A stretch of DNA of 44,161 bases from Paludibacteraceae bacterium (GTDB lineage Bacteria > Bacteroidota > Bacteroidia > Bacteroidales > Paludibacteraceae), in the NCBI GenBank assembly GCA_024401435.1, contig JAKSLB010000027.1, positions 1-44,161 of the forward strand, written 5' to 3'. The position numbers and the translations under genes were made by a program. Numbering within the stretch: position 1 is the first letter of the stretch; each line of letters starts with the position of its first letter. Below the pieces are notes generated by a model. The model was not told where the DNA came from. It saw only the letters and a program-made list of their open reading frames with translations, and searched no databases. Below are positions 39,893 through 44,161 of this stretch, one piece after another.

Positions 39893-41044
39893 ATGGATTT
39901 TGAGAAGATAATAGAGTATTTTACCCGATGGAAAGAGCAAGGATTGTTGAATGAAAAACAATTGTTGCATGTTCATGCAAATTATACATCACTTGTCATT
40001 TTTATTCTGTTAATGTTGTTTGTGCCATTCCTCTTGTCCTTTTTGTTGAAGGAATGGATGTGTATGCTGTTTTCGTTCATTATTGTTTGCTTTATACTTG
40101 GTTACATCTTTTGTACCAAGCCATTGAATTGTTTTCTGATGAAGGACGGATTGGAATATCAGACACTTTTATTTAAAAAGAAAAAAAGAATCAGTTTTCT
40201 GGATTTGCAATCCGTTTTGATCTATAAAAATGTGATGCAGTTTCAATTTGACAATGATAGTATATCTATCGGTTCTTCATGGATTCATTATAAAGAAATA
40301 ATACCTTTTGTTAAAGATGCATTTCCGTCCATTTGTACAGAATATGATAATGAAGAAAGTAAAACGAAATACAATGATGAGATAGAGTTTATTCATTCCA
40401 TTCGAACAGAAACATCCGAATTATTTCAGTTGTATAAGTTGTATTATTTAGTTGTAAAAGATGGAAAATATGAAGAAGAAGGATTAAAATTTCTAAAGGA
40501 AATTTTTAGGAATAAATATTTACGTTCTATAGACGAGGCTATTATTTTATTTGAGAATAAGGTTTCCAATTATGATGAAAATAAAACGCCCAATTATCGT
40601 GTGATATGCAATTTGATTATAGAATCCAAGAAGATGCGATATGATCAACGATTAGATTTGTTGAATGGATTATTTGAAGTTGCATATAAAGCGAATCGAT
40701 TATCGAAAGACCGATTGTTGATTTTGCGGGAAATTGCACGGTTCCTTTTAATTAATGAATACGATCGTATTTCATTAGAATATATGTATGGATATGATAA
40801 GCTGTTCGATCCCCAATTCAATATGATGGCTGACAAATTAGAAGATGCATATAAGGTATTGGCACTTTCTGAAACGGCATCTAATCAACAGATTAAATCT
40901 AATTATCGTTGCTTGGCAAAAAAGTATCATCCAGATAAATTGACAATGTCAAACTCAGAAGAAGAGAAGAGTTATGCAGAGGCAAAATTTAGAGCTATTA
41001 CAGAAGCTTATGAATTATTGTGCAAAGTTCGTGACATTAAGTAA
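39893..41044 (+). CDS. Membrane-anchored J-domain protein (DjlA/TerB-like)
   Basis: The 383-aa protein has two hydrophobic segments (about 32-52 and 56-74) near the N-terminus, a helical middle region resembling a TerB/DjlA domain (about 165-300), and a C-terminal J domain (about 313-383) with the HPD motif at 346-348 (KKYHPDK). The J domain should stimulate DnaK-type Hsp70 ATPase at the membrane. It lies 10 nt after pgeF and is probably co-transcribed with it. No terminator is clear after the stop. DjlA homologues are often in envelope-stress contexts; that link is inference. Confidence 0.83.
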   Translation: MDFEKIIEYFTRWKEQGLLNEKQLLHVHANYTSLVIFILLMLFVPFLLSFLLKEWMCMLFSFIIVCFILGYIFCTKPLNCFLMKDGLEYQTLLFKKKKRISFLDLQSVLIYKNVMQFQFDNDSISIGSSWIHYKEIIPFVKDAFPSICTEYDNEESKTKYNDEIEFIHSIRTETSELFQLYKLYYLVVKDGKYEEEGLKFLKEIFRNKYLRSIDEAIILFENKVSNYDENKTPNYRVICNLIIESKKMRYDQRLDLLNGLFEVAYKANRLSKDRLLILREIARFLLINEYDRISLEYMYGYDKLFDPQFNMMADKLEDAYKVLALSETASNQQIKSNYRCLAKKYHPDKLTMSNSEEEKSYAEAKFRAITEAYELLCKVRDIK

Positions 41045-41403: not shown

Positions 41404-41946
41404 TCATCTAAAAAAAACTATCATTCTTTTTGATACATTAATTTTTGCCAAAAAAAAATCAGAGGATTCATGATATAGTATAGGGAAAATGCTATTTTTC
41501 AATCCTTTATATCTTATATATCCACTAACCATTAATATGTAATTATCATTTATATCCTTATAAGGATATAGACTTTTTGAAAATAATTTATAATCATATA
41601 GTTTTCTTTCATTAATAAACTCAACAGAAAGAAGACTATCTACTAAAGCAATTTCATCTATAGAAAATGTCCTTTTTTGAAGAATATCACTAATATTTTT
41701 TTCTTTAAAAAAATATGTAAACAATCTATCATATGCTCGATATATACTAGTAGTATCATAATTATAACATAATATTGTATACACAGTATCATTAACAATA
41801 CGAGTGTAACCTTCTGGTCCTATTTGTCTATCCTTTATATCTGATATTTTTTTTTCTAAAACAACATCTATTTTAAGTGGTTCATTAGAATAAACAGATA
41901 AAAAAGCTATCCAATAAATAAATGTTAAACAAATCCATTTTTTCAT
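41404..41946 (-). CDS. Putative exported immunity protein for RHS tip 1
   Basis: The 180-aa protein has a signal peptide (about residues 1-20, WIAFLSVYS before NEPLK) without a lipobox, so it should be periplasmic. Its start codon overlaps the stop of the RHS tip gene (TAATG, one shared base), which indicates translational coupling. In polymorphic toxin loci the gene directly after the toxin tip encodes the immunity protein, so this role is inferred from position. The mature part has no recognised domain. Confidence 0.68.
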   Translation of the reverse strand: MKKWICLTFIYWIAFLSVYSNEPLKIDVVLEKKISDIKDRQIGPEGYTRIVNDTVYTILCYNYDTTSIYRAYDRLFTYFFKEKNISDILQKRTFSIDEIALVDSLLSVEFINERKLYDYKLFSKSLYPYKDINDNYILMVSGYIRYKGLKNSIFPILYHESSDFFLAKINVSKRMIVFFR

Positions 41947-42833
41947 TAGAAATCATTTGATATTGGTGAATTAACTTGTATATGTCTTACATTATTATAC
42001 TTAGTTCTTGTATATTTAATGTCTTTTGATGGAACAAACTCCCCATTCGAAATAGCAGCTTCCGTTTCATATTCTCTAACTGGTAATATTTCGTATGATG
42101 GACCAAATGCAGGTTCATGTCCTGGAAATTCTCTTTCCATTGCACTCTCCATTGCATTAGAATCTCCTGATTCTTCTGCGTTAATTAAATCCAAATGCAA
42201 ATCTAAATGACCCATCTCATGAAACAATCCATTTGCTGGAGAAAGTTTAACTCCATTGTCTGTTTCTATGGCTCCAAGATCATTCCATTCTAGAACTTGC
42301 TCTGTTTCAGTGTATGGAAGGACTACACGACTTTCATTAGACTTTTGAATTGTAATATTATAACGTTCTGTGTTACACAATTTTTCTATAACGCCCTTGA
42401 CTTTTTCACTTTTACCATTGTACAAATAATTAAGTGCAAGTATGGCATTTTTTTCAAATGGTGTTTTCCCCATTTCTATTCTTGTTTTTCCTGGAATATA
42501 TACAATATTACCAATTTTTATCTTTTCTCCATCCACATCCACCAACCTCACCGGATTCCCCGCACAATACCCATAAGGCGACATTCCCACATACTTCTCA
42601 AACAGCGGATCGACGCTCAGCCACATGGCCTCTGATGGGTCGAGATAGCGGGCACCATAGTAGTAGAGACCGGTTTCGGAATCGAGTTCCTTTGCGTTGA
42701 AAAGATAAGGTGACTGCCAACCGCCAGACTGCTGCTCCACGAAGATTTCGCCGTAGGGAATGTAGGAGATAACCCGCGAGGAATGCTCGCGTTTTCTTAC
42801 GGCTTCGCCGTTGTCAGTAACGGGTATTGACAT
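41946..42833 (-). CDS. RHS C-terminal tip 1: truncated core plus HExxH metallopeptidase-like toxin domain
   Basis: The 295-aa protein contains only the end of the RHS core (about residues 20-100): ISYIPYGEIFVEQQSG, FNAKELDSETGLYYYGARY, PSEAMW and MSPYGYCAGNPV. These are classical RHS repeat-associated core motifs, ending at VDVDG. After this comes a unique AT-rich tip with HEMGH (205-209, His-Glu-x-x-His; nt 42207-42221), a zinc-protease signature, and Glu residues around 254-258 (REYETEAA) that could be the third ligand. The ATG at 42833 follows an in-frame stop, so the gene is complete but lacks the rest of the RHS protein. That is the form of an orphan tip displaced by recombination. No PF search was done. 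Confidence 0.75.
   Translation of the reverse strand: MSIPVTDNGEAVRKREHSSRVISYIPYGEIFVEQQSGGWQSPYLFNAKELDSETGLYYYGARYLDPSEAMWLSVDPLFEKYVGMSPYGYCAGNPVRLVDVDGEKIKIGNIVYIPGKTRIEMGKTPFEKNAILALNYLYNGKSEKVKGVIEKLCNTERYNITIQKSNESRVVLPYTETEQVLEWNDLGAIETDNGVKLSPANGLFHEMGHLDLHLDLINAEESGDSNAMESAMEREFPGHEPAFGPSYEILPVREYETEAAISNGEFVPSKDIKYTRTKYNNVRHIQVNSPISNDF
42528..42778 (-). repeat. RHS core repeat, copy 1
   Basis: This 251-bp segment aligns without gaps to 43911-44161 (offset 1383) with about 24 differences counted by eye, so about 90 percent identity. It is visibly GC-rich, unlike the AT-rich toxin tips on both sides. Confidence 0.85.
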
Positions 42834-42911
42834 TAGAATTTGTTAATTATATTTCACAAAGTAGTGTATTGTTTGAAAACTTTTACAATGGTTTATATAG
42901 AATATTTTCTT

Positions 42912-43256
42912 TTACTCATTTTTTTTATTTGTCAATCCACTACATACAGGATCAAAACTATTCCATACTCGATTGTTTAGGAAACGTTCTGAATTGTAAA
43001 AAAGAAAATTTCTACTAAAAATGACACTGTCATTAGAAATGTTTGAATTTTCCAATATACAAAAAGTCATTCCATTAAACCTTCTTACAATTTTATACTT
43101 CCTTTTGCTTTCTTTTAATGAATCTTTTTCAAATATCAATTGTTTTGTTAAACGTTGCACCTTAATTATCTTACTTCCACTTTGTGAATATGTAGTAACA
43201 CATGAAACATTAAGTATCAATAAGAAAATCATAAAATAACTTGATATCAACTTCAT
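42912..43256 (-). CDS. Putative immunity lipoprotein for RHS tip 2
   Basis: The 114-aa protein has a lipoprotein signal peptide (MKLISSYFMIFLLILNVSC, Cys19). It starts 12 nt after the stop of the second RHS tip gene. By position it is the immunity protein for that tip and would be membrane-anchored in the periplasm. Its mature part is short, basic and without a recognised domain. Immunity is inferred from context only. Confidence 0.66.
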   Translation of the reverse strand: MKLISSYFMIFLLILNVSCVTTYSQSGSKIIKVQRLTKQLIFEKDSLKESKRKYKIVRRFNGMTFCILENSNISNDSVIFSRNFLFYNSERFLNNRVWNSFDPVCSGLTNKKNE

Positions 43257-43268
43257 ATTACCTAGTAA

Positions 43269-44161
43269 TTAAAAATCCGGGTATAATTTTTTACCATTAC
43301 CATCACCAATGCGTCTTACGAAATCAGAATTGACCTCAAATATATTTTTCGTTATCACACTTGGTATGACTTCCACATTAGGAACAAAATTGTTTTGACT
43401 ATTGTTAGAATGATTTTTAGCCACATTTACTGCATCCCACAATTTATTTAAAACATCTTCTGTCTTAGCATTTCCTAAAATTCCCGGAAGATATAATTTA
43501 CCGTTAAAAGAAAGTTGTGCTCTATATGCATCTACCTCATGATTTACATTATAGTTGGATTTATCCTTATTCAATTGTCCTCTTGCATATTGTCCACAAT
43601 GACGTAATTCATGAACAATTAGTGCTTTATCCTTCAGAAGTCTATGCCTTAAATATATCACATATCTACCATTTTCATATTCCGTATAATTCTCATTGTT
43701 GGAAGATTCGCAAATAGAAAAATTTTCATTGCTTTCTCGCATTGTCGAAATATCTTTCCTTGTAAGTTCAAGATTTCTTATTTTTTCCTTATTTTCTTGA
43801 ACGTTTTTATTTTTTGCTATTTTTTTGTTTAATTTTTCAATCGTTCTTTGTGCTTTTATGTCAATCTTACTCAACTGTTTATCTTCAAAGCTTCCCTCTT
43901 CTACATTTTTTCCATCAGGATCCACCATCTTCACCGGATTCCCCGCACAATACCCATACGGACTCATTCCCACATACTTCTCCCACAGCGGATCCACGCT
44001 CAGCCACATGGCCTCTGATGGGTCGAAATAGCGTGCTCCGTAGTAGTAGAGACCTGTTTCGGAATCGAGTTCCTTTGCGTTGAACAAATAAGGTGACTGC
44101 CATGCTCCGGACTGCTGCTCCACGAAGATTTCGCCGTATGGAATGTAGGAGATAACCCGCG
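43269..44161 (-). CDS. RHS C-terminal tip 2: partial gene, core end plus HExxH metallopeptidase-like toxin domain
   Basis: The frame is open to the edge of the window, so this is the end of a longer RHS protein; the GTG at 44123 is only an internal codon. The core end is like that of tip 1 (YLFNAKELDSETGLYYYG, PYGYCAGNPV, then VDPDG). The tip begins with a Lys/Glu/Asn-rich, probably coiled-coil stretch and contains HELRH (nt 43599-43613), a HExxH zinc-protease signature, followed 20 residues later by the NHEVDAYRAQ segment whose Glu may complete the site. No metal-binding evidence exists beyond motif. Translation ends YPDF, and a small lipoprotein gene follows after 12 nt. Confidence 0.78.
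   Translation of the reverse strand, partial: RVISYIPYGEIFVEQQSGAWQSPYLFNAKELDSETGLYYYGARYFDPSEAMWLSVDPLWEKYVGMSPYGYCAGNPVKMVDPDGKNVEEGSFEDKQLSKIDIKAQRTIEKLNKKIAKNKNVQENKEKIRNLELTRKDISTMRESNENFSICESSNNENYTEYENGRYVIYLRHRLLKDKALIVHELRHCGQYARGQLNKDKSNYNVNHEVDAYRAQLSFNGKLYLPGILGNAKTEDVLNKLWDAVNVAKNHSNNSQNNFVPNVEVIPSVITKNIFEVNSDFVRRIGDGNGKKLYPDF
43911..44161 (-). repeat. RHS core repeat, copy 2
   Basis: This is the partner of 42528-42778. Identity continues to the last base of the window, so the true repeat is probably longer. Similarity ends sharply at the conserved PDG/VDG codons, where the two tips begin. Confidence 0.85.

Follow-up and report, generated by a model that had tools for sequence, protein, structure and literature searches.

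The window analyzed here is the whole of contig JAKSLB010000027.1 (C125), 44,161 nucleotides from the 3.83-Mb genome of a Paludibacteraceae bacterium (assembly GCA_024401435.1; 204 contigs, 93% complete). One end of it probably carries two displaced tip-immunity cassettes from the large, recombining polymorphic-toxin repertoire of an uncultured Bacteroidales genus, each consisting of an RHS core stub, a zincin-like metallopeptidase tip directed at the cell envelope and an exported immunity gene. Together, the two tips with their exported neighbors and the same pairing at similar tips in relatives suggest weapons against the cell envelope of competing bacteria.

Two RHS cassettes at the end of the window

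The TIGR03696 model (Rhs_assc_core) matched both cassette open reading frames (ORFs), with E values of 3e-19 for cassette 1 and 3.6e-21 for cassette 2. The two core ends are 90.2% identical at the DNA level over 256 bp, and the blastn match between the cassettes ends there. The initial annotation, made from the sequence alone, had described two cassettes that share a core end and then diverge, with HEMGH and HELRH motifs in the tips and a small gene after each; these observations were borne out, including the 1-base overlap (TAATG) between the stop codon of cassette 1 and the ATG of small gene 1 and the 12-nt gap between the tip-2 stop codon and small gene 2. Its range for tip 1 (41946-42225) was too short, however, holding just the last half of the domain; the tips begin at 42527 and 43910 (Table 1).

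A core end recognized by TIGR03696, a variable C-terminal domain and a small downstream gene, the last assigned by position only, mark both loci as RHS tip cassettes. The same three elements characterize the RHS/YD-repeat toxins of the TcdB/TcaC (SpvB) route in the part of the polymorphic-toxin survey cited here (PMC3482391). GC content was 0.53 in the cores, 0.33 and 0.30 in the tips, and 0.225 and 0.255 in the small genes, and the combination of a core end, a variable tip, and low-GC tips and small genes is a classical set of RHS features. The N-terminal carrier and repeats are absent from cassette 1, whose ATG lies only 19 codons ahead of the shared core, and we therefore call it a displaced cassette rather than a complete RHS toxin.

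Table 1. Coordinates of the cassettes, tips and small genes in the window
Feature	Coordinates	Strand	Remarks
Cassette 1, 5'-truncated RHS gene, 295 aa, ATG start	42833-41946	minus	RHS core end, then tip 1
Tip 1, divergent M91-related putative metallopeptidase	42527-41949	minus	HEMGH 42221-42207; EYETEAA 42054-42074, candidate third ligand Glu
Small gene 1, 180 aa, putative exported immunity protein of tip 1	41946-41404	minus	
Cassette 2, RHS core end and tip 2	44159-43269	minus	Open at contig end; 5' part beyond contig
Tip 2, DUF6782-like putative metallopeptidase	43910-43272	minus	HELRH 43613-43599; HEVDAY 43524-43541, candidate third ligand Glu
Small gene 2, 114 aa, putative exported (lipo)protein, putative immunity protein of tip 2	43256-42912	minus	

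Metallopeptidase-like tips

The motifs HE(M/L)GH and YETxAA were invariant in all five tip-1 sequences, four of them from other genomes; the relatives L055 and L056 had been found by patterns of these two motifs, and L043/L054 and L044/L057 without them. From relatives we took 17 of 28 Peptidase_M91 matches, and HExxH aligned in 16. Against a profile of these 16 domains, tip 1 gave an hhalign probability of 98.7% (a single-pair value, like those below, with no database correction), with both the HExxH and the Glu of YETxAA in register, and the value was still 96.6% when the HExxH stretch was masked. Controls for this comparison reached 0.3% on reversal, 0.0-0.4% in six column shuffles and 0.1% with two immunity alignments. 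On these profile alignments we conclude that tip 1 is related to Peptidase_M91 but divergent from it, and we file it as M91-related and not as a member. With the M91/Tox-HopH1 group (NleD, HopH1) it shares the HExxH, the downstream Glu region and an alignment of domain length; it differs in its sub-cut-off score, and nothing here points to a host-cell target.

For tip 2, the Pfam model DUF6782 (PF20573), a putative metallopeptidase family whose function is not known, matched approximately 100 residues including the HExxH (E = 3.5e-6). An alignment of tip 2 with eight relatives at 20-33% identity (eight of the nine relatives found, L052 being excluded) had eight invariant columns, among them H102, E103, H106, E127 and Y131 (9/9). 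Compared with the M91 profile, tip 2 gave 87%, which dropped to 3.2% with the motif masked, so that its link to M91 appears weak and to run through the motif region alone. The two tips as members of one family were rejected, because hhalign between them matched just the RHS linker. The initial annotation had called the tips unrelated; their sequences do diverge after the core, but the term is uncertain in that both align with the M91 profile, tip 2 via its motif region.

Several results weigh against a zinc-protease reading of the tips. Tip 1 matched Peptidase_M91 in Pfam at E = 0.072 and 13.9 bits, missing the gathering cut-off of 25, and tip 2 scored 26.9 bits against DUF6782, just below the cut-off of 27. 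The metallopeptidase-like character proposed for both tips thus stands at the level of sequence profiles (M91-related and DUF6782-like) and falls below the Pfam cut-offs in both cases. AlphaFold models, which had been suggested as a check, were too poor for use: the mean predicted local distance difference test score (pLDDT) was 48.6 for tip 1, modeled from five sequences, and 42.6 for tip 2 alone. A Foldseek search of the poor tip-1 model found no zincin in the PDB (best E = 0.79). With no useful fold match, the models neither supported nor refuted a zincin fold. Profile searches against solved structures gave designed armadillo repeats for tip 1 (26 residues, best E = 0.0015) and a best E of 0.39 for tip 2; neither hit was a protease, and both were taken as chance. 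Neither tip had a match in the plasmid collection, and no relative of tip 2 was found among the viral contigs.

Exported partner genes

Small gene 1 begins with a signal-peptide-like segment in its first 22 codons (41946-41881; hydrophobicity 2.21), by eye of the plain type (VYS/NE). Small gene 2 has a hydrophobicity of 2.71 and, by eye, an atypical lipobox (NVSC, 43200-43211); an NCBIfam lipoprotein model matched it at E = 8e-4 and 18.4 bits, against a cut-off of 100. These two readings correct the earlier description as signal-peptide or lipobox proteins. An exported-looking gene, judged by eye, also comes next after 4/4 distinct tip-1 relatives and 8/9 tip-2 relatives, and the partners of the tip-1 relatives L055, L056 and L057 form one related family (37-46% identity to the first). 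From position and conservation we infer that small genes 1 and 2 are probably immunity proteins.

Two results weigh against this assignment. The small genes had no convincing similarity to the partners of the nearest tip homologues, and among the 22 weak non-self matches examined (11 for each gene; E = 7e-9 to 0.008) none had the GAR/YxYC core motif within ~1.5 kb. An unrecognizable partner relationship is described as common among immunity proteins of the type VI secretion system (T6SS) in the part of PMC6899460 cited here. Homologues occurring away from any RHS gene had been named as contrary evidence at the outset, and what was found is a weak form of it, with 0/22 matches near a core motif and two beside RHS pieces. 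These two are weak relatives of small gene 1 (23% identity), at G000:C137 (E = 8e-4) and G011:C22 (E = 0.006); both are exported, and we read them as orphan immunity genes. The remaining matches may be chance, several lying in frames with stops; the best of all (E = 7e-9), a match to small gene 2, covers 35 residues, and its frame is broken by two stops. At G011:C22 (locus L142, 1-2504) three consecutive small genes, all of exported appearance, come after an RHS fragment; by eye, one resembles small gene 1 and another the gene paired with an HELKH tip of G010, and the row looks like an orphan or poly-immunity array.

Genes of this kind fit an alternative in which the cassettes are an unexpressed reservoir of tips and what counts is the exported small genes alone, as protection from neighbors whose full-length RHS genes bear these tips. 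The lack of a whole N-terminal carrier in cassette 1, the weak relatives of small gene 1 beside RHS pieces without a full core and the row of exported small genes after an RHS fragment at G011:C22 all favor it, whereas in the window tips and in related ones the reading frames are open and the HExxH is intact, features that would be expected to decay if unused. We regard a silent reservoir as an appreciable though minority possibility, and one compatible with the displaced-cassette explanation.

To place the pairs in context, partners were scored as exported when the mean Kyte-Doolittle value reached at least 2.0 over 11 residues within the first 32. TIGR03696 matched 142 times across 16 genomes of the genus (40 matches in the genome of the window; at least one in 15/16 genomes), which includes the relative Paludibacteraceae bacterium RGIG9480. 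We took 135 of the 142 matches; in 106 the tip reached 150 aa and the frame closed with a stop codon, and 3 had no following gene. At a gap of at most 60 and a length of at least 80 there were 98 pairs, or 97 after removal of one duplicate, near-identical tips being kept; 5 pairs were dropped for gap or length, 2 with a hydrophobic start and 3 without. The family and class samples came from 40 regions chosen, non-randomly, for dense or high-scoring arrays and yielded 43 and 45 tips and 40 and 42 pairs, respectively.

Exported partner genes are the rule in the genus: 83/97 pairs had one, compared with 15/71 control ORFs and 6/23 operonic control genes from the genome of the window. HExxH was present in 25/97 genus tips, against a mean of 0.68 and a maximum of 4 in 200 shuffles of the tips, although two of the 25 (HEPEH on C165 and HESSH in G014) may be chance occurrences. 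When the three samples were pooled (179 Bacteroidia pairs), 41/42 HExxH tips had an exported partner, compared with 101/137 other tips (Fisher p = 3.4e-4). The counts were 42/42 and 107/137 at a threshold of 1.6, and 37/42 and 84/137 at 2.4 (p = 0.0012). The single genus HExxH tip that failed the rule has a partner scoring 1.97, with a lipobox-like YSCG.

The strength of this pairing is tempered on several counts. The export rule is a hydropathy score and not SignalP. Taken one by one, the samples gave 24/25 HExxH against 59/72 other tips in the genus (p = 0.11, not significant), 10/10 against 22/30 in the family (p = 0.17) and 7/7 against 20/35 in the class (p = 0.038, weak), and the pooled p value is optimistic because the test treats cassettes related by descent as independent, and because the outer regions were hand-picked. 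Among partners scored as exported, a further hydrophobic stretch was present in 4/83 (genus), 3/32 (family) and 4/27 (class). Around M91 domains, 15/17 loci had a following gene, with a hydrophobic start in 14/15 and none in the remaining one; loci L259 and L266 overlap the family sample. Exported partners as a peculiarity of HExxH tips were rejected within the genus, since 59/72 other tips have them too. The initial annotation had argued from exported immunity to toxins acting in the periplasm. The 41/42 HExxH pairs agree with a periplasmic or envelope target, and there is an experimental precedent in VgrG2b/PA0261; since exported partners also accompany those 59/72 other genus tips and are not special to protease tips, however, the argument depends on the contrast with tips whose partners are not exported, and not on this pair.

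That contrast was approached with a Pfam scan of 9/13 non-HExxH genus tips with non-exported partners and of a tip on C121. Four of the nine matched Ntox21, Tox-GHH (sub-threshold, E = 0.008), Tox-REase-9 and Ntox28, and five matched nothing; Ntox21 and Ntox28 we take to be nucleases. The partners of these four nuclease-type tips, those recognized in the genus, all lack an export signal, and several other tips of this group, whose partners have internal hydrophobic stretches, look membrane-directed by eye. The 59 non-HExxH genus tips with exported partners matched Toxin-JAB1 (5) and Peptidase_M23, YkuD, DUF6973 and Prok-JAB (1 each), and none matched a nuclease toxin family in Pfam; three further single-family matches look like chance, and at least 47 tips match nothing. 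Pfam matches among the HExxH genus tips were to M91 (2/25), M10 (2), reprolysin-like and other zincin models, and DUF6782 (1). In the family and class samples, outside the Pfam scan, nuclease-like tips (by eye) again had non-exported partners. Thus, where a tip can be named, partner location seems to mark the target compartment of the toxin. Most tips had no Pfam match (at most 12/59 matched, and 6/10 gave none), so that this reading depends on few of them. By eye, two tips of the family and class samples are JAB-like (L242) and lipase-like (L222), yet neither has a partner that passed the export rule; both points count against it.

The tips might instead be inactive or serve another role, such as self-processing of the RHS shell, with the small proteins acting as folding helpers or lipoprotein anchors. 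The uninformative structure models, a protease activity that is a prediction from sequence, and RHS autocleavage, named in the title of PMC8636562, leave room for this. Elsewhere, however, JAB, M23, YkuD, zincin or nuclease-type domains occupy the same position, a hallmark of toxin tips. Next to the four nuclease-type tips, moreover, the partner lacks the export signal. We consider such a role improbable.

Other tips seen in the survey were of varied type. The metzincin motif HExGHxxGxxH occurs in RHS tips at L089 (290-922), L068 (2573-3196) and L104 (1776-2420), matrixin-type tips with exported partners. The tip at L024 799-1629 (G000:C203) looks L,D-transpeptidase-like by eye (HGG...GCIR), and its partner is exported. 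On G000 C121 (locus L037, 8212-9797) the partner, 89 nt on, is Sel1-repeat-like and lacks an export signal, so that this pair of the same genome may be a cytoplasmic one; its tip looks GIY-YIG-like by eye, but Pfam gave no match. G000 C128 (locus L105, 1029-1784 and 6200-6955) carries a pair of closely similar tips whose C-terminal part is hydrophobic; they are candidate pore formers, and their partners have internal hydrophobic stretches; one of the two was scanned and had no Pfam match.

Carrier, delivery and target

The genome of the window has 37 places resembling the tip-2 gene, and tandem tips occur on several contigs (C157, C165, C178, C2 and others). The low ends of C178 and C143 lie inside a further core copy (end matches of ~100, 55 and 62 bp); since contig ends lie in core copies, the assembly is broken at these repeats, and C143, C178 and C125 may form one array. 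Contig C143 encodes a 3115-aa carrier with SpvB, FG-GAP, TcdB-mid and RHS domains and, by eye, a signal-peptide-like start, and the core of cassette 1 is 90% identical over 258 bp to the core of this full-length carrier. In its signal-peptide-like start and its SpvB, FG-GAP and RHS domains, the carrier resembles the Sec/SpvB route as outlined in the cited part of PMC3482391, where Tox-HopH1, Tox-MPTase1 and Tox-MPTase2 are listed for the SpvB route with Bacteroidetes among their lineages. The carrier sits in an operon-like run (G000 C143, locus L038, 606-19889, minus strand), possibly a two-part secreted RHS system: the first genes encode a 763-aa exported protein (vWA-like by eye, with a weak MAM match) and an 808-aa protein with a weak tail of the type IX secretion system (T9SS), followed by a 1704-aa SpvB-RHS protein seemingly tipless at its end and then by the 3115-aa carrier, its tip and a partner gene.

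In the explanation we favor, recombination in the shared core would join a tip to a complete carrier, for example the 3115-aa protein of C143, and the carrier would exit by Sec and then by an outer-membrane step of unspecified kind. The tip would be delivered to neighboring cells and would cut protein or peptide bonds in the periplasm or envelope of rivals, and the exported partner would neutralize it in that compartment, protecting kin and the producer itself. From their sequences we infer the zinc protease activity, the target compartment and the immunity function of the pairs.

No match to the T6SS sheath protein VipB was found in the 93%-complete genome, with one model whose control panel matched E. 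coli only and held no Bacteroidota positive. T9SS is present (SprA, 2373 bits; 74 Por_Secre_tail matches at E <= 0.001), but domain scans recognized no T9SS C-terminal signal on the C143 carrier; the 808-aa gene two upstream of it has a T9SS tail signal at 24.3 bits. The missing VipB match, from a model untried on Bacteroidota controls, and the missing signal on the carrier count against the delivery step of the scheme. T9SS export has been proposed for the TANFOR toxins (Jana et al. 2020, PMC7073777), which, in the portion of that paper cited here, are Bacteroidetes toxins with Sec signals near T9SS substrates, substrates comparable here to the gene two upstream of the carrier. They differ in that the carrier here is RHS and in that the TANFOR tips named in that portion are mostly nucleases.

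A functional parallel is the Tpe-Tpi pair of Pseudomonas (VgrG2b C-terminus/PA0261). As given in the cited part of Wood et al. 2019 (PMC6899460), it couples a periplasm-toxic zinc metallopeptidase with an immunity protein that needs its own signal peptide. The pairs described here resemble it, by sequence only, in joining an HExxH toxin to an envelope-exported partner; the Tpe-Tpi toxin is T6SS-delivered, whereas no VipB match was found here, and the likeness described is one of arrangement.

The SpvB and TcdB-mid domains of the carrier and the M91 relationship of tip 1 also bear on a different target, a eukaryotic host or gut protozoa, as for M91 effectors of the NleD/HopH1 type, and NleD and HopH1 are placed in one toxin family in the cited part of PMC3482391. 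That same text notes that many pathogen toxins come without immunity proteins, whereas antibacterial toxins, for which immunity is a necessity, would be expected to have a linked partner gene, as found here with export in 41/42 HExxH pairs. A host target therefore seems unlikely to us.

In the portion of Zhang et al. 2012 available for comparison (PMC3482391), all but a few immunity proteins are cytoplasmic, which differs from the HExxH tips here with their nearly constant exported partner. L,D-peptidase toxins there have, in some cases, partners that are secreted or lie in the membrane, and Imm65 is the sole lipoprotein in that collection. Imm65 with Tox-JAB-1, together with the L,D-peptidase toxins, resembles the Toxin-JAB1 (5/59) and YkuD (1/59) genus tips with exported partners, although the toxin folds are different. 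No immunity family is shown in that portion for Tox-HopH1 or Tox-MPTase1-5, and the present pairs, provided that the pairing is a rule, would supply candidate immunity genes for such metallopeptidase tip families. Among the titles and abstract openings listed, none described exported immunity as the rule for Bacteroidota RHS tips, in a search that did not reach most subscription journals. RHS toxins, M91 domains and Tpe-Tpi-like pairs are known kinds; the strength of the pairing between HExxH tips and exported partners is the new element.

A broader proposal, to which we give a little less than an even chance, is that the RHS arsenal of the Bacteroidia is largely envelope-directed and Sec-exported, that the compartment of the immunity protein marks the target, that zincin tips (M91-like, DUF6782-like and matrixin-like) were recruited repeatedly with exported antidotes, contrary to the 2012 picture, and that the carrier reaches the periplasm of a rival without a T6SS. 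Should the pairing rule hold, one could predict from sequence, by the export signal of its partner, where an uncharacterized tip acts, and the many uncharacterized Bacteroidota tips could be sorted by compartment (envelope, membrane or cytoplasm). A further question is how a secreted RHS carrier delivers tips to the periplasm of a neighbor in a genome with no detected T6SS sheath gene.

Adjoining the cassettes in the window, at 39893-41044 on the plus strand, is a gene for a 383-aa protein; by eye, its N-terminus has membrane segments and a stretch at its C-terminus (HPDKL) looks like DnaJ.

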